From Methanomicrobiales archaeon (GTDB lineage Archaea; Halobacteriota; Methanomicrobia; Methanomicrobiales; Methanospirillaceae): DNA of 64,000 nt. The position numbers and the translations under genes were made by a program. Location of the stretch: positions 1-64,000 of the forward strand of contig JANYKQ010000087.1 of NCBI GenBank assembly GCA_025358115.1. The letters run 5' to 3'. Under the pieces are notes generated by a model, which was not told the DNA's origin, ran no database searches, and saw only the letters and a list, made by a program, of their open reading frames with translations. Positions 7,484 through 38,794 of this stretch are shown piece after piece. The first letter of the stretch is position 1. Each line of letters opens with the position of its first letter.

Positions 7484-8083
7484 TCAGAAGATTATATCCT
7501 CTTTTGGGAATCTCACTTTTGGCACAGGCTTGTCAGCCGCGTACCCGAGCGGGCAGAGCATCACCGGTACCAGCGGCGAAGGGATCTTCAGGATTCGGGT
7601 GAACTCTTTGGGATCGAACCCTCCCATGGGGCAGGAATCAAAACCCAGTGCTTTTGCGCCGTTCAGGGCATTCCCGAGAGCAAGATACGTCTGGGCCTGC
7701 GACCATGCCAGTTTCTGCTCCGGTGACATGGGTCTGGTGAACTGGACTGCCATCCCGACAACCATCTTCTGCATCTCTTCAGGGGCGCCGCTCTTTTTTA
7801 AGAGAATTGCAAGCCTTTTGATGAGACTGTCGTAATCGGGATCTGCACAGAAGACCAGCAGGTGAGAACAGCTGGTAATCTGCTCCTGGTTAAACGCCGC
7901 CGGCCGGAGCAGCTCCTTTGTTTTCTTGTCGGTGACTATCTTGATCTTCCAGGGCTGGAGGTTTATTGCAGACGGGGCAAACCGAACCATCTCGAGAAGT
8001 TCAACAATCTTTGATTCAGGAATCGACCGGCCGTCAAATTTCTTTGTCGCGTAGCGCGACATGACAATTGTTCCAAACTCCAT
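7484..8083 (-). CDS. Nitroreductase-family flavoprotein
   Basis: A 199-residue FMN-dependent oxidoreductase of the nitroreductase superfamily. The N-terminal pattern SRYATKKFDGRSIPE and the RFAPSAINLQPW segment are the usual FMN-phosphate and active-site region, and the C-terminal part carries the family GFDSCPMGGFDP stretch. The ATG has a good ribosome site (GAGGT, 7 bases upstream). It is transcribed singly and divergently from the DUF2164 gene. The natural substrate cannot be deduced; members reduce nitro compounds, quinones or flavins. Confidence 0.9.
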   Translation of the reverse strand: MEFGTIVMSRYATKKFDGRSIPESKIVELLEMVRFAPSAINLQPWKIKIVTDKKTKELLRPAAFNQEQITSCSHLLVFCADPDYDSLIKRLAILLKKSGAPEEMQKMVVGMAVQFTRPMSPEQKLAWSQAQTYLALGNALNGAKALGFDSCPMGGFDPKEFTRILKIPSPLVPVMLCPLGYAADKPVPKVRFPKEDIIF

Positions 8084-31260: not shown

Positions 31261-32163
31261 ATGCCAGACCTGGACCCCTTCTTCTTCAAGATAAATTCCT
31301 GGTCCTTCACCAAACACCGGGTCTGGAACCGGTGCCAGCGCCAGTACTATTTCGAATACATCGCTCCCTATGTCAAATCCTCTCCCGTAGTTGATCCCGA
31401 AAAGGTCCGGTGGCTTAAGACCTTCACCTCCAAGTTCGTTGTCCAGGGCCAGCTCATTCACGATATCATCGATGAGCAGATCCAGCTCCATTGCGAGAAC
31501 AAGCCCATGGAACCGGCCGGGGCAATGGATGAGTTTACAAAAAAAGTTTTACGCTACAAAAATACTGGCGGCGAAACATTTACCGAATATCACAACGGCG
31601 AGAAGATCCCGGGTTCATTCTATACGTTCATCGAAGAGAACGGGAAGACCTGCCTGCATACCTTCTTTGGGAAGTGGCCGGACTACCTGAGCCGTGAATG
31701 CCTGCGGCACGAGACGTTCGATCATTTCAACATCGGTGATGTCGGGGTAACGGTCAAGGTGGATTTTGCCGGGAGGATGCCGGATGGCACGCTCATCATC
31801 ACGGACTGGAAGACCGGCCGTGACGATGACAATTACGAATCGGAACTCCAGATGGCGGCATATGTGCTGTGGGCAAAAGAGTATTACACGATGAATATCG
31901 ATCACATCGGCACCGAACTCGTTTTTTTGAAAACCGGCGCAACGAAACCCTATGCCTTCTTCGAAGATCAATTGAGCGAGGTGCAGGAGCAGATCCCCCG
32001 GGAATTTGCGGCAATGAATGCTTCCTATGAATACGAAGATTTCCCGGCCCGGCCTTCGCAGCGGGAGTGTATGAGCTGTAAGTTTGCGGAGGTCTGTCCG
32101 GAGACTGCGGTTGTAAGGAAGTTAGATTGTTTTTGTGCAATGCCAGGAAATGACGGAGCATAA
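31261..32163 (+). CDS. RecB-like PD-(D/E)xK nuclease with a probable Fe-S cluster
   Basis: A 300-residue nuclease of the RecB/AddB/Cas4-like superfamily. The catalytic motif is VDFAGRMPDGTLIITDWKTG (Asp, then DWK), followed by the QMAAYVLW helix. One Cys near the N-terminus (NRCQRQYYFEY) and three at the C-terminus (CMSCKFAEVC) match the four-Cys Fe-S staple of AddB and Cas4 proteins. There is no CRISPR array nearby. The 3' end faces the DnaQ-like exonuclease gene with 54 bases between them. It probably acts in repair or recombination, but defence is possible. Confidence 0.85.
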   Translation: MPDLDPFFFKINSWSFTKHRVWNRCQRQYYFEYIAPYVKSSPVVDPEKVRWLKTFTSKFVVQGQLIHDIIDEQIQLHCENKPMEPAGAMDEFTKKVLRYKNTGGETFTEYHNGEKIPGSFYTFIEENGKTCLHTFFGKWPDYLSRECLRHETFDHFNIGDVGVTVKVDFAGRMPDGTLIITDWKTGRDDDNYESELQMAAYVLWAKEYYTMNIDHIGTELVFLKTGATKPYAFFEDQLSEVQEQIPREFAAMNASYEYEDFPARPSQRECMSCKFAEVCPETAVVRKLDCFCAMPGNDGA

Positions 32164-32217
32164 AAACGAAAGAAGATAAAAAAACAAAAAATATCCGGTC
32201 TCTCACCGGAAATCATC

Positions 32218-32805
32218 TTATCCGATAACTCCTCTCCGCCGTAATTCAAAATAGCATTTTGCACACGCTTCCACGTCAGCTTCGGCATCATGGCAGCCGG
32301 AAAATTCTGTCTCGAATAAGTGCAGGTGCAGTTCTGTCAGCTTTGGCCATTTGCTTCTCGTGCCGGAAGCATTGGGAATTTTGCAGTACGAGACAATGCC
32401 GGGAGCCTTCATGGTGCAGAACTTTTCTTTTTCCGCAAGTTTTGTCTCCATCCTGCACCGGAGGAACTCGGTCTGTATGATGGGCAGATCGAAAGCGGCA
32501 TTATGCGCAATGATGACGCTGGCCCTCTCGACATCGGTATTGAACTGCGGGAGCACTTTGTGCAGCGAGACTCCCTCTGCTTTCGCCCGCACGGTCGTGA
32601 TGCCGTGAATCCGTGCCGCGTCCGGGGGAATGGTGAAGTCCACGGGGTAGATGATAAAACTGTTCCGGCTTTCACAGTTCCCGTCGCGGTCATAGAGCGA
32701 CCAGGCCAGCTGGACAATACGGGGCCATTTTTCGGTCTCGGTTGTTGCGTAATATTTTGGAAGACCGGTGGTTTCGGTGTCGAGGAAGAGAAGCATCCAT
32801 TTCAT
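32218..32805 (-). CDS. DnaQ-like 3'-5' exonuclease (DEDDh type)
   Basis: A 195-residue DEDDh exonuclease. The ExoI motif is FLDTETTGL, ExoII lies in IIAHNAAFDLPII, and ExoIII is CHDAEADVEAC with the expected His-Asp arrangement. Residues around AARIHGIT match the family nucleotide pocket. It is a stand-alone proofreading-type exonuclease, not part of a polymerase. It is transcribed towards the RecB-like nuclease gene. Confidence 0.85.
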   Translation of the reverse strand: MKWMLLFLDTETTGLPKYYATTETEKWPRIVQLAWSLYDRDGNCESRNSFIIYPVDFTIPPDAARIHGITTVRAKAEGVSLHKVLPQFNTDVERASVIIAHNAAFDLPIIQTEFLRCRMETKLAEKEKFCTMKAPGIVSYCKIPNASGTRSKWPKLTELHLHLFETEFSGCHDAEADVEACAKCYFELRRRGVIG

Positions 32806-33210
32806 TCAGGTATAATCTTATTTGGGTGTGACTGTTTTATTTTTATAACCGGAGAGATCGTTGTATGGCCGGATTTGGGGGTGTATTTGCCAATTAATTC
32901 AACGCATAGGGGGGAGGACTCCCCTGCGGGGGTTTTACCGGATACAGGTTGTTTATTGGAAAGTTTAACCGGACTGAACGAATGACGCCAGAACCCCTGC
33001 GGCGGTGCAATTGTCACTGATCGATTCCTGGCAATCTGCCCTGAGGGGGGCCGGCAAGGTGCCCGGGCGTTTCCCTGCAATACCGGGGGGATACAGGTCC
33101 GGTTGATTTTTTTAGATTGTCCGGACAGATTCTTTTAACTTGAATTTAAAAAGTATTATAAAAAAATTTATTACTTTATATTAAATCATTATCTTACCAG
33201 GGAGATCCCG
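32806..33210. other. AT-rich promoter region of the 1194-residue protein gene
   Basis: No gene is seen. The last 100 bases are strongly AT-rich with several TATA candidates (about 33145-33185), unlike most gaps here. A short perfect palindrome TGTCCGGACA lies at 33117-33126. The ribosome site GGGAG precedes the ATG at 33211. Confidence 0.5.
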
Positions 33211-36200
33211 ATGAGCACCGTTTATGGTTTTGTGAAAGTGAAAGAAACCGATGAACCGATTGCCGGTCTGATGGTTGTTGTTGCCTCACGAGTTGTGCCA
33301 AAGACAACTGCAAAGACCAAATCCGGCGTAAGCGATCCATTTCAGTTGTATAAGACGAGACTGGGCTCCACCATCACCGATGCAGAGGGGAGGTTCCAGA
33401 TTGAATTCGAGAATGAGGCCGCCACGTCCCCATCCAAATTACCGGAACAGACCGAGCAGATACTGGCCCTGCTCGCGCCTGCGACCACATCCCCGATCAA
33501 CAAACTGACTTCTACGAGTCCTTTTGATAAACTGTTATACTGGGTAATGCTTCCCCGGTTAAGGCCTGATCAGAGCGAAGCCTGCACTATCCGGCTGACA
33601 GATGATCAGCTCAAAAACTTCAATATTCCGACCCGCAGTTATCGGCAAAAGGTCGATGTTGATAGTCAGATCGCGTACCTGGCAGAAGCAGAGAAGGAGA
33701 GCGAACAGTTCCGCAAGGCATTTCAAAAGGATATCGCGCCCCTTCGTAAAAAACGGCTCGAGCGTGAACAAAAAATTGTTGCGGATGCAAGGCAGTTTGC
33801 CTCATCCCTGTATGCAACCCCGAAGGCTGTCCGTACCCAGCGAACTTTCGGTTTGTCGAAAGACCAGCTGAAAATCGCGAGAAAAAATGCTGTCGAATAC
33901 GGGCTGGCGAATATGAAAAATTCAGCCTCAAAAGGTAAGGGTACGGTAAGCATTAACCTAGACCAGAAAAATCTCGACAGTCTTGGCATCGGAAATATCT
34001 CCGGGGGTATCCTGATCGAAACGGAAAAACTCTGCCAGCTCATGAGCGAGCGGCGCGGCGGGACTGAGCTGACCCGGGTACGGGGATTGCTGGATGCATA
34101 CAAAGTCGCAGCCGAAGCAACCGCTAGGCTGGCCCGGGACACAGGCTCAATTACGGATGATGACGGGACCGTGGCAACGGAACCATCCGAAAGGGAAGCT
34201 GCGCCCGCGGATACAATTGCGCAGCACGTCCTGGGCCAGCTCAAAGACATGCCGGTCTATACATCGGCGGATGATAATACCCTGCCAAAGGCATTGACCC
34301 GCGATGAACTCAATGCCATGCTCCCTGCCGTACAACTGGGGGCAGGACCAACCGATGTTCCCTCGTTCCACGATTTCTATAACCTGCAGATGGCGTTCCT
34401 GCATGTCTGGACTGAGGCATTTGATGAGGAACTCCGTTCCGATGTTGAAAAGGTTTATGAAGAATATGTAAAATTGCATCATGAATTATACGGCGACGAG
34501 TCATTCACCGGGATTCCGGAGCTTGAGGAGATCCAGGATCTAATTGGATTTATCAGGGAATCTGGTTCGCGTGATCCATTGCAGCCAATTCTTTCCAGCG
34601 ATCAGACAAAGGCAGTTCTTCAAAGCCTGGGTTATACCACGGAAATAATTCAGTTTCTTAGTATTGAACAGCAGACGGATCTCAACAATCTGGCATCTCT
34701 CTGGGGGTCGATCTATATCAACAACCCTGATGATTCCAGAGTCAGAACAGCTATCGAGCGGATCAAGAACATACTTGAACATCCATCCGGCATAAGAACA
34801 CGCCTGGAGCGTTTGCTCTACCAGGTATCACGGCGTCTCAATGAACCGTACTCCTTCCACTATTTTGAACCGGATTCCGTAAACTTTGGAATACTGCTGA
34901 CCTATCGCCAGCACTGGCAACCGGGGCCTTACCAGGTAGGTGACCTGGTGTCAACAATCCCCCTTGCGCCGGGTGAAAAACGACGGTTCGAGACAAAACA
35001 GACAATCAGACAAACACGGGCAAAAAACGAACTGGTTAAGGCGGTGTTATCCAAAAGCTTCGATTCCTCAAACACCCTGCGAGCCGATGCAGAGATTACC
35101 GAACGGGCGTCAATACGCAGCAATTTCCAGATGACTGCCGAAGGGTCATTAAATTTCGGTATAGGGGAATTATCCTCGACAACGCAATTTGGGATCGATC
35201 AAAATCAGGAATCATCGCGTGTCAAGAAAGATTTCCGGGAGGCAGTACTCAAAGCAGCCCAGGAATACCGGCAGGAACGATCGGTTGAGGTGCGAACAAC
35301 AGATGAGATCACTACCGAGACAACCACCTCCGGGGAACTCTCCAATCCCAATAACGAACTTACGGTCACGTACCTGCTCTATGAACTGGAGCGGCAGTAT
35401 ACGATATCCGAACAGATTCACCGGGTCACACCGGTAATCCTCGTTGCTCAGGATATGCCTGCTCCCCACGAGATTACGGAAAGCTGGCTCCTGGCACAGC
35501 AGTGGATTTTGCGCCGCGTCTTATTGGACGATTCTTTGCGACCGGCCCTGGAATATGTTTCCAATGCATTTGCCGGTGAAGAAGTGAGCATCGAAGTGAG
35601 CAAAGCAACCTGGGAAAAACAAAATGCGCTGGTTACGGAACTCGAAGGCGTGGTAAAGGGTTTCAAGAAGGCCCGCGATGAATTGCGCGAGTTGTTAATT
35701 ACCACCGAGGAAGCCCGGGCAACGGAGGCCGCGGAAGCGCCAACAACCGGCCAGACGATATGGACGGCGATCCTCACCGGGGGTCTCAGCCTTGCCGCAG
35801 GAGACTCGGGATCCGAGCAGGATGCAGAACGGCTTGAGATCGCCCGGCGTGCAATTGAGTCCCGGCTTAAGTATCTTGAGGACACCTTGAAGGAAGCACA
35901 GGAACGGATGGTTTCTGCGCAACAGACGCTCAACGAAGCAACCCGGGTCTACAAGGAAGCTCTGGAAACCCAGACCAACCGCAGGGTCGCCATCGATCAG
36001 CTGCGAATCCATGTCAAAGAAAATATCTTCTATTATATGCAGGCCATCTGGGATTACGAACCGCCGGACCAGCGTTTTTTCCGCCTGTATCATGTGAATG
36101 TTGATCTGCCGGAGTCCCCGGCCCGGACAGTCTCAATACGCCCGGCAACCGAAGATGATCTTGAGACCGGCATACCAACCGTAGAATACGGGGGCGTGAG

Positions 36201-36795
36201 GTACATTATCCAGATGGAGGCGCCGGCAATGCCGGATCCGGAACACCCCAACCCAAAGCCCCTTGTCGAGATCGCCGATCTGGACCATCCGCTCGGATAT
36301 AAGGGCAATTACATCATCTTCCCCCTCAAGACCTGCCTCTACCTGACCAACTTCATGATGCGGGAGTTCTTTGACGACTACTTCGGGGTTCGTGATCCGG
36401 AAGTGGCCGCCAACTTTACCGTGGAGGAGTTGCTCACGTATGCTGAAGCGCTGATCCGCGATGGAAAACTGACCGGACAGCAGAGGGCGGCATTGCAGGG
36501 CATTGTCATGACCAGGCTCCGGCAGCCCCGGCGCGATTCCGATCTCGTTGTCGTACCTACCGGCGAACTGTTCATGGAAGCCCTTCTGGGTGAACACGTC
36601 CTGCTCGAGAACTTCAAACTCAACCACCGCTATGTCGATATGGCCAAAGCCAGGGCTGAATGGCGCGGGGTCGAGCTGGAGAACCTGCGCAGGGCTGCCC
36701 GGTTGTTGAAAGAAGAACCGGATCTTGAAGACCCGGATGTTGATAAGAGAATTGTTGTCGAAGGCCCGGGTCAACTCAATGTTGACGTACCGTAA
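33211..36795 (+). CDS. Large soluble protein of unknown function, transthyretin-like N-terminus and coiled coils
   Basis: A 1194-residue protein, second largest thing to a system here. There is no signal peptide. Residues 4-70 look like a transthyretin/carboxypeptidase-regulatory-like beta domain (VYGFVKVKETDEPIAGL, ending TDAEGRFQIEFE). Residues about 150-200 and 400-440 are charged helices. Residues 548-770 form the most conserved-looking core (TYRQHWQPGPYQVGDLV, PLAPGEKRRFE). A coiled coil at about 795-840, a hydrophobic stretch at 846-864 and a second coiled coil at about 868-945 follow. The C-terminus holds PTGELFMEALLGEHVLLE. It is translated with a GGGAG site and is followed by a 213-residue gene 35 bases on. 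Similar large proteins exist, to my memory, in bacteria with no known function. Confidence 0.8.
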   Translation: MSTVYGFVKVKETDEPIAGLMVVVASRVVPKTTAKTKSGVSDPFQLYKTRLGSTITDAEGRFQIEFENEAATSPSKLPEQTEQILALLAPATTSPINKLTSTSPFDKLLYWVMLPRLRPDQSEACTIRLTDDQLKNFNIPTRSYRQKVDVDSQIAYLAEAEKESEQFRKAFQKDIAPLRKKRLEREQKIVADARQFASSLYATPKAVRTQRTFGLSKDQLKIARKNAVEYGLANMKNSASKGKGTVSINLDQKNLDSLGIGNISGGILIETEKLCQLMSERRGGTELTRVRGLLDAYKVAAEATARLARDTGSITDDDGTVATEPSEREAAPADTIAQHVLGQLKDMPVYTSADDNTLPKALTRDELNAMLPAVQLGAGPTDVPSFHDFYNLQMAFLHVWTEAFDEELRSDVEKVYEEYVKLHHELYGDESFTGIPELEEIQDLIGFIRESGSRDPLQPILSSDQTKAVLQSLGYTTEIIQFLSIEQQTDLNNLASLWGSIYINNPDDSRVRTAIERIKNILEHPSGIRTRLERLLYQVSRRLNEPYSFHYFEPDSVNFGILLTYRQHWQPGPYQVGDLVSTIPLAPGEKRRFETKQTIRQTRAKNELVKAVLSKSFDSSNTLRADAEITERASIRSNFQMTAEGSLNFGIGELSSTTQFGIDQNQESSRVKKDFREAVLKAAQEYRQERSVEVRTTDEITTETTTSGELSNPNNELTVTYLLYELERQYTISEQIHRVTPVILVAQDMPAPHEITESWLLAQQWILRRVLLDDSLRPALEYVSNAFAGEEVSIEVSKATWEKQNALVTELEGVVKGFKKARDELRELLITTEEARATEAAEAPTTGQTIWTAILTGGLSLAAGDSGSEQDAERLEIARRAIESRLKYLEDTLKEAQERMVSAQQTLNEATRVYKEALETQTNRRVAIDQLRIHVKENIFYYMQAIWDYEPPDQRFFRLYHVNVDLPESPARTVSIRPATEDDLETGIPTVEYGGVRYIIQMEAPAMPDPEHPNPKPLVEIADLDHPLGYKGNYIIFPLKTCLYLTNFMMREFFDDYFGVRDPEVAANFTVEELLTYAEALIRDGKLTGQQRAALQGIVMTRLRQPRRDSDLVVVPTGELFMEALLGEHVLLENFKLNHRYVDMAKARAEWRGVELENLRRAARLLKEEPDLEDPDVDKRIVVEGPGQLNVDVP

Positions 36796-36830
36796 AGGAA
36801 AACCGGTTGTGGAAACAGTGAGGCAAGACC

Positions 36831-37472
36831 ATGAATGGAAAAAATGAAGGGAGAGGAATTGGCAGGAATTCCGGTAATCAGATCAGCGACGGGGACCGGG
36901 GACTTTTGTCTCCGGGACGTACCTCGTCGCCTTCCAAACAATCTTATAAAGAACAGGGGACCTCATCGTTATCCGGTGATAAACTACCCCCGGTTCCACA
37001 GCAAAGTCCCTCAATGAACCGATCCTCTGTTCAGCCGCAAAGTCCCATGATGTCGCGGGAAGACACTGAATTACTCCTGCAATTGGATGTCCAGACTTTC
37101 CGGCCGATAATCCCGTCCACTTCCAGTCCCGATTACGTCTCCCTTATGCGGAGTTTTGACAGCAGCTTCTTTGGCCGTGGTTCTGAGTACTTCAATTTCC
37201 GCGGGAGGCCGATGCGGGGCTGGGAGGTAAATTACTACTTTATCGCTATGGCAATGGCTAACCAGGGTTACTCCGAGCGCGAAACACTCGACAGAATATG
37301 GCAGTGGAATGCAGTGCAGGCGCTTAGTCGGGGAAGCTCATTTTCCGCGGAAATGACCAGCGAGATGTGGTTCGCTGCACAGGAAGGCTACCGCGACGAA
37401 ATTCTCAGGTTACAGCCTTCCCGGTATAATCGGATACAAATGAGTCCACCGGGAACCGCCAGGCGGCGATGA
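36831..37472 (+). CDS. Companion of the large protein, disordered N-terminus plus small C-terminal domain
   Basis: A 213-residue protein, second gene of the unit, with a GAGGC ribosome site about 8 bases before the ATG. Residues 1-80 are Ser/Pro/Gln/Gly-rich and likely disordered. Residues about 85-205 look like a compact domain, with aromatic-rich stretches such as FFGRGSEYFNFRGRPMRGWE and MWFAAQEGYRDE. The tail is basic and ends in RR. I find no known family. Location in the same short operon suggests it works with the large protein. Confidence 0.7.
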   Translation: MNGKNEGRGIGRNSGNQISDGDRGLLSPGRTSSPSKQSYKEQGTSSLSGDKLPPVPQQSPSMNRSSVQPQSPMMSREDTELLLQLDVQTFRPIIPSTSSPDYVSLMRSFDSSFFGRGSEYFNFRGRPMRGWEVNYYFIAMAMANQGYSERETLDRIWQWNAVQALSRGSSFSAEMTSEMWFAAQEGYRDEILRLQPSRYNRIQMSPPGTARRR

Positions 37473-37765: not shown

Positions 37766-38794
37766 TTATGGAGTAACCCGCTCGTTTTCCCCGCCGGTTT
37801 TTTGGTTAGTCCATACGTTGGATCGCAGGAGTATGATGGCGAAAATACCCAAAATGACAATAATCGGAAGGAATGAAACGATCGTATCTGCGCCGGAAAT
37901 GTATACCCGGCCGGTATTGACGATAATATCGATGAGGCCATGTAACAGGACGGCAATCCATATGCTTCCGGTCTTGAGTACGGCATAGCCGAATATGACA
38001 CTCACGATGATGGTGTAAACAAGGTACACGATATTTGCCGACAGGAAAGATTCATTAGGAAAATTAAGTCCCATCAGCATCAGGGGAGCGTGCCATAACC
38101 CCCATATCAGGCCAACCAGGACCACGCCGGTATACCCTCCGAAGAGTGCAAACAGACGGTCCTGGAGGTAAAAACGCCAGCCGTACTCTTCACCGAAAAA
38201 TATCGGCCACGATATGACTAAGGTCAGCAGAGGTAACCCCAGGGTCGTGAAGAACAGGGCCAGGTTAAACTCCAGGAAGGGCAGGCGGAGCCCCAGGCTG
38301 TAACTGAGAAGAAGTGCGATAATATATGCCAGAGAGAAAAGAACGGGCAGAATAACAAATAACCTGCGGTTTTTTCCAAAGGATAATTTTGCGGATGCAA
38401 GATTAGACCGCCAGGTGTCCTTCAGGTTCAGGATAACTACCAGCACAAGCGTTGCAAAACTGGTAACAACGGAGAGTATCGGGTAAGGACCTGCGGTCCC
38501 GAGAACCGGATAGAAAACCATCTCAAAAATAAGAAGTCCCGAAGAGATCACAAAACAGGCAAGAAACAGTTTTGTTTCCCGGGTCAGGGCTGTTGATTTA
38601 AAATACACCAGGCAGATTATCGCTGTAATCGCCGGGATGAACATGGCAACTGTGGGTATCTTACTCGACAACATTTTCGGGCCGTACATGCCAATACCCG
38701 CAATTTCAAGAAGAAATGTGGCGCCAAAAGCGATAATGAGAAAAAAACATAATTCGAATTTCAAACGACCCCGTTCTGATAGTACTATAGCCAT
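37766..38794 (-). CDS. CPBP-family intramembrane metalloprotease
   Basis: A 342-residue protein with about eight membrane helices and the CPBP (CAAX/Abi) motifs: EEYGWR, GLIWGLWHAPLM and HGLIDI. These are the Glu-Glu and His positions of the membrane-embedded metal site. Ribosome site GGGAGTG 9 bases before the ATG. Bacterial members process prenylated proteins or act as bacteriocin self-immunity proteins; the archaeal role is unknown. It converges on the two-gene unit at 33211-37472. Confidence 0.88.
   Translation of the reverse strand: MAIVLSERGRLKFELCFFLIIAFGATFLLEIAGIGMYGPKMLSSKIPTVAMFIPAITAIICLVYFKSTALTRETKLFLACFVISSGLLIFEMVFYPVLGTAGPYPILSVVTSFATLVLVVILNLKDTWRSNLASAKLSFGKNRRLFVILPVLFSLAYIIALLLSYSLGLRLPFLEFNLALFFTTLGLPLLTLVISWPIFFGEEYGWRFYLQDRLFALFGGYTGVVLVGLIWGLWHAPLMLMGLNFPNESFLSANIVYLVYTIIVSVIFGYAVLKTGSIWIAVLLHGLIDIIVNTGRVYISGADTIVSFLPIIVILGIFAIILLRSNVWTNQKTGGENERVTP

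Follow-up and report, generated by a model that had tools for sequence, protein, structure and literature searches.

What might an archaeon do with two adjacent genes, of which the first encodes a protein that no curated library can name and the second a protein that is replaced almost everywhere the first one reappears? I discuss this question for a unit in a 64,000-nucleotide stretch (the window) of contig JANYKQ010000087.1, from a Methanomicrobiales archaeon of the Methanospirillaceae (assembly GCA_025358115.1), where a large gene for 1194 residues is followed on the same strand, 35 bases after its stop, by a partner gene for 213 residues. An earlier note had called the pair uncharacterised, and both open reading frames (ORFs) are exactly as it gave them, with no known family for either. 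The reading that I regard as probable is that the unit is a module of a carrier and an exchangeable effector. A broader claim, held more tentatively and as somewhat less than an even bet, is that the core of the large protein marks out a superfamily of delivery proteins not described before, present in archaea and at least five bacterial phyla, whose interchangeable effectors form part of the same protein or come from the gene that follows, without linked secretion machinery, and which archaea among others use against other microbes.

The evidence that carries the first reading is the constant place and changing identity of the partner. Ten loci were counted, namely the window, Salinirubellus, Sinorhizobium terangae, Ciceribacter, Dethiosulfatarculus, Paracoccus, a Bacteroidota assembly and the genomes G095, G296 (both archaea of the window's phylum) and G479 (a member of the Dethiosulfatarculus phylum), with S. 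mexicanum and a broken Saprospiraceae copy excluded. A same-strand gene comes after the large gene in all ten, at distances from -17 to +123 bases, and the ten large proteins are all homologous by BLAST, whereas 44 of the 45 partner pairs are unrelated; the sole related pair, Salinirubellus and S. terangae, also comprises the two partners (2/10) in which the PT-TG pre-toxin domain was found (E 4e-9 and 2e-13). Even G095 and G296, with large proteins 62% identical, have unrelated partners. The pairing of the two genes on which the note had placed weight is thus one of position, conserved at every locus, and not of a conserved partner family, and it is this combination that is the informative feature of the unit: polymorphic effector systems show just such a pattern, in which the carrier stays constant and its partner is replaced, and the unit is therefore read as carrier plus exchangeable effector. 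The window's own partner appears, as the note had described it and judging from its sequence, to have a disordered stretch (residues 1-85) ahead of a compact domain (residues 86-213); it has no relatives in plasmids or viral contigs and no convincing ones in 197 genomes of the same phylum.

Weak matches to the core in other genomes lead to giant single-gene proteins of a wider, unnamed superfamily, and the link from the window type to this group was confirmed by profile-profile comparison (probability 99.3, E 3e-20, residues 530-752). The later motifs HVKENIFYYMQAIW, GNYIIFPL and VPTGELFMEALLG have, by eye, look-alikes in the wider group (HLNxHLEYYHKxIW, GNSLVFPV and VPTxGVFxEAVxG) in the same order, and a segment resembling HVKENIFYYMQAIWDYEPPDQRFFRL can likewise be made out by eye. 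Where the window type has PTGELFMEALLGE the wider superfamily runs on into a variable tail of 80-607 residues, and among eleven such proteins the cores match in 55/55 pairs and the tails in 2/55 (E 1e-3). Among the tails or attached domains are SH3 (E 1e-9), OmpA (3e-11) and DUF2272 (E 1e-15), the last ending a plasmid protein of the haloarchaeon Haladaptatus sp. YSMS36 (L060:7251-11324); by its Pfam description DUF2272 is conserved in bacteria. The Novosphingobium member has a short tail and a separate gene 33 bases downstream. Since the cores match, the tails do not and Novosphingobium keeps a separate gene, the same core appears with changing cargo, fused or separate. A distant Paraburkholderia core is followed by a chitosanase-like gene (E 1e-4, under the curated cut-off), and plasmids of Streptomyces, Haladaptatus, Psychrobacter, Polaromonas, Nostoc and Novosphingobium carry further members. 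The Salinirubellus partner and the Polaromonas tail contain PD-(D/E)XK-like motifs, but because so loose a pattern also hits randomly elsewhere, these are pattern matches and no more than leads.

Eleven relatives of the window-type protein itself are scattered over archaea, Desulfobacterota, Alphaproteobacteria and Bacteroidota, several of them on plasmids, which bears out the impression in the note of a likeness to large bacterial proteins. Full-length or near-full-length plasmid copies occur in the haloarchaeon Salinirubellus sp. SYNS196, S. terangae, S. mexicanum and Ciceribacter thiooxidans, one occurs in Dethiosulfatarculus sandiegensis (55% identity), and others were found in Paracoccus marinaquae, one Bacteroidota and one Saprospiraceae assembly (the last apparently broken by repeated transposase-like elements), G479 and the two archaea G095 and G296. 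The large gene was found in none of 39 relatives from the genus and order; matches extending beyond the N-terminal domain were found in 3 of 295 genomes of the window's phylum; and 247, 345 and 398 genomes from three bacterial phyla gave one or two window-type cases per phylum. A viral origin was considered and rejected, with no relative in viral contigs or phage records apart from one wider-core match on an unannotated record marked UNVERIFIED. Individual copies show peculiarities of their own. In the complete genome G095 a TAG codon falls in frame within the large gene (L037:8585-11860), between the stretches for the two helices, and since PylS is encoded there (E 1e-114, above the cut-off) pyrrolysine is probably inserted at this codon, so that the gene may be intact; the G479 gene (L049:7141-10534, minus strand) occupies two frames, with the break near 7874-7968, owing to either a mutation or an error in sequencing; and in S. 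terangae (L003:11221-15327) the open frame of the large protein also contains a LuxR-type DNA-binding stretch, some 200 codons ahead of the likely start. Sinorhizobium medicae plasmids (L005:8001-8090 and others) hold, near nif/nod genes, a lone fragment of 24-34 residues around KENIFYYMQAIW, 71-79% identical, which is likely a remnant of a lost large-gene copy.

How did such a gene come to be so scattered? In an unrooted maximum-likelihood tree of eleven large proteins Dethiosulfatarculus is the sister of the window protein (100/100), with Salinirubellus next, so that a bacterium nests among archaeal sequences, and monophyly of the archaea is rejected (AU p 3e-159). Movement of the large gene between the domains of life by horizontal transfer is thus demonstrated by the phylogeny of its sequences. 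The note had suggested transfer from bacteria; the crossing of domains stands, but the direction is not simply bacterial to archaeal, and for the Dethiosulfatarculus step a transfer from archaeon to bacterium is no less likely than the reverse, an unrooted tree giving no proof of direction. Furthermore, the unit is absent from a complete genome of the same genus (G017), where the flanking exonuclease, nuclease, C45 and Rce1 genes are present near one another in two blocks; the window unit sits between these blocks, the order of which is shifted relative to G017, and the flanking genes are 74-90% identical except for Rce1 (54%). Assembly contamination was likewise rejected, because the adjoining exonuclease gene shows 73-87% identity in genomes of the same genus and the C45 gene 90% in G017, and the contig therefore belongs to the archaeon. 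Rarity, scatter, frequent plasmid location, absence from G017 and a phylogeny that crosses domains fit a mobile conflict module.

The features of the unit are collected in the table. The transthyretin-like start that the note had proposed is credible, with a beta-rich domain of pLDDT around 70 in an AlphaFold model otherwise of low confidence and a weak, sub-threshold match to CarboxypepD_reg; the same module also heads other archaeal proteins of the same phylum that lack the core (L039, L040, L042, L043). Of the two coiled coils that the note saw around a hydrophobic stretch, the two long helices do flank such a stretch and are predicted probably to form an antiparallel coiled coil, although a heptad-like period is significant in the second helix only (5/500 shuffles reach its value, compared with 54/500 in the case of the first helix). 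The stretch is no family feature: Salinirubellus, Paracoccus and both other archaea have it weakly or not at all, and in Ciceribacter it is strongly hydrophobic. The distinctive C-terminal motif is kept in nearly all relatives and lies 75-87 residues from the end in 9/9 window-type proteins in which it can be detected. Nothing like a signal peptide was found, the large protein having no strongly hydrophobic start, as the note had also said.

Table. Features of the two-gene unit, in window coordinates
Feature	Residues	Position	Strand	Basis
Large gene, conserved protein (proposed carrier)	1194 aa	33211..36795	+	ORF with ATG, relatives, codon score
Transthyretin/carboxypeptidase-regulatory-like N-terminal domain	~1-135	33211..33615	+	model, weak PF13620 match
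Conserved core, VGDLVSTIPLAPGE ... NPNNELTVTYLLYELERQY, common to wider superfamily	529-793	34795..35589	+	alignment, profile comparison
Two long helices between core and C-terminal part	~790-837 and 869-949	35578..36057	+	helix prediction, low-confidence model
Hydrophobic tip between helices, IWTAILTGGLSLAAG	850-864	35758..35802	+	sequence; not conserved across family
Conserved motif HVKENIFYYMQAIWDYEPPDQRFFRL	934-959	36010..36087	+	near-invariant in alignment
C-terminal motif PTGELFMEALLGE and remainder	1116-1194	36556..36792	+	alignment, motif position
Partner gene (proposed variable effector)	213 aa	36831..37472	+	ORF with ATG, codon score, position
AGGGAG, ribosome-binding-like, ahead of large gene		33199..33204	+	read from sequence
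GTGAGG, ribosome-binding-like, ahead of partner gene		36818..36823	+	read from sequence

Scored by the codon usage of the window, each ORF does best in its own frame among the six, and the large one is no chance frame because eleven relatives exist elsewhere. The genes on either side (32218-32805 upstream and 37766-38794 next) lie on the opposite strand, so the large gene and its partner form a unit of their own. Adjoining it, at 31261-32805, are a PD-(D/E)XK nuclease and an exonuclease gene (compared with L089 and L091), and this pair occurs in G001 as repeats that are partly degraded and has a rearranged order in G017; the genes alongside differ in each genome, making the neighbourhood a possible variable spot. 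A search for the methanogenesis gene mcrA found none in the window's genome, which is 70% complete; matches were over the cut-off in G095 and just under it in G296.

Neither window protein reached a curated cut-off in Pfam or NCBIfam, matched convincingly in PHROGs or PADLOC, or found a relative in the PDB by sequence search, and a profile of eight large proteins did no better. Pfam matches of the large protein to Fib_alpha, DUF2225 and DUF7555 were far under the curated cut-offs and were set aside as coiled-coil or chance matches, and the variable C-termini gave nothing usable against PDB sequences. The carrier is new to the libraries and literature searched.

Now considering how such a module might operate, the 1194-residue protein would be the conserved carrier, built of the transthyretin-like N-terminus, the core, the long helix pair and the conserved C-terminal part, and the gene directly behind it would encode the effector, which changes between lineages whereas the carrier is retained; in the wider superfamily a variable domain would take that role fused to the C terminus of the same core. 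The effector would bind the carrier, both would leave the cell, and the effector would harm another cell. Lysis or an unlinked exporter is proposed as the way out because no signal peptide and no linked secretion genes were seen, and a role in pore formation or injection is speculation. Several observations weigh against this account. Neither an export signal nor a linked secretion system was found at the unit. The library scans recognised no toxin or pre-toxin domain in the window partner, and most partners of the ten loci lack a recognisable toxin domain. A consistent immunity gene was not found either, the next gene being mostly on the opposite strand or more than 400 bases away, with a close third gene only in L009. 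AlphaFold lends no fold or interaction support, mean pLDDT being 40.6 for the full large protein and 38.3 for the core alone, because there are too few sequences. Ten loci are a small sample, the tail annotations rest on few proteins, and the zincin-like tails with HExxH motifs are sub-threshold by curated cut-offs.

Variable effectors beside a conserved large protein are also typical of many defence systems, and the large protein could instead sense an intruder and release or activate a variable toxin partner inside the cell, as intracellular defence or abortive infection. The lack of a signal-peptide-like start and of an immunity gene, together with a variable spot next to nuclease genes, would suit this explanation. 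I nevertheless consider it unlikely, given that PADLOC gave no match, that the carrier showed no NTPase, nuclease or signalling domain in Pfam, that the tails of the wider superfamily (OmpA, SH3, DUF2272, zincin-like) look aimed outward and that pre-toxin domains were described from exported polymorphic toxins (PMC3482391). A self-contained binary toxin, in which the carrier inserts into a membrane by way of a Gly/Ser/Thr-rich core stretch or the helix tip and threads the partner into the target cell, is a special case of carrier plus effector; the Gly/Ser/Thr-rich variable segment in the core of the wider family, the long helices of the window type, the strongly hydrophobic Ciceribacter tip and the absence of other linked delivery genes speak for it, but in most members the tip is not hydrophobic, the carrier matched no known pore former in Pfam or PDB and no fold was predicted, leaving this version quite improbable.

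Envelope proteins commonly contain transthyretin-like, OmpA and SH3 domains, and many tails have no assigned domain, which would allow a surface or matrix protein whose variable partner is an enzyme or adhesin and no weapon. With neither a signal peptide nor an anchor, with extreme partner variability beside a constant carrier, and with two pre-toxin domains and a scattered occurrence, this seems to me very improbable. The carrier with an exchangeable effector remains the reading that I prefer.

Which known systems come closest to such a carrier and effector? Tc toxins, in which TcA acts with TcB/TcC, combine a large conserved delivery part with a hypervariable toxin part, a comparison of how things work and nothing further, as no sequence match to Tc subunits was found in Pfam or PDB. 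In TANFOR systems of Bacteroidetes, for which MIX/FIX are named as parallels, toxins are encoded immediately downstream of a protein with a delivery domain (PMC7073777), and the effector gene right behind the delivery-protein gene is the point of likeness. TANFOR proteins, however, mostly carry a Sec signal, hardly occur outside Bacteroidetes and in many cases come with immunity genes (PMC7073777), whereas the window-type family has no signal peptide and no consistent third gene and spans archaea and bacteria; the TANFOR domain (TIGR02542) matched neither window protein in NCBIfam. Polymorphic toxin systems (PMC3482391) share with the unit a conserved part with an exchangeable part, here a candidate effector, and PT-TG in two partners, but the carrier, with a putative trafficking role, has no known trafficking domain and there is no immunity-gene pattern. 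Because an export signal, an immunity gene and known trafficking domains were sought and not found, the unit is filed under no known toxin family and stands outside them, although by analogy it would work like a polymorphic effector system. Archaeal contractile injection systems, or archaeal type VI secretion systems (T6SS), are a demonstrated archaeal route for attacking other cells (PMC11566945). Phage_sheath_1 (PF04984) was found in none of the window's genome (70% complete), G095, G296 and Salinirubellus plasmid W01, where the T6SS sheath family was not searched for, and it is over the cut-off in two bacteria that have the unit.

Polymorphic toxin systems have been described as generally lacking in most lineages of archaea, apart from rare exceptions (PMC3482391), and only a few weapons of archaea have been demonstrated (PMC11566945, PMC12352652). 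If the reading is true, a delivery family that is common to archaea and bacteria, and exchanged between both, is missing from curated libraries, and its compact two-gene form would be directly testable. The carrier would also offer a handle for discovering new effectors, as any gene behind a carrier is a candidate.

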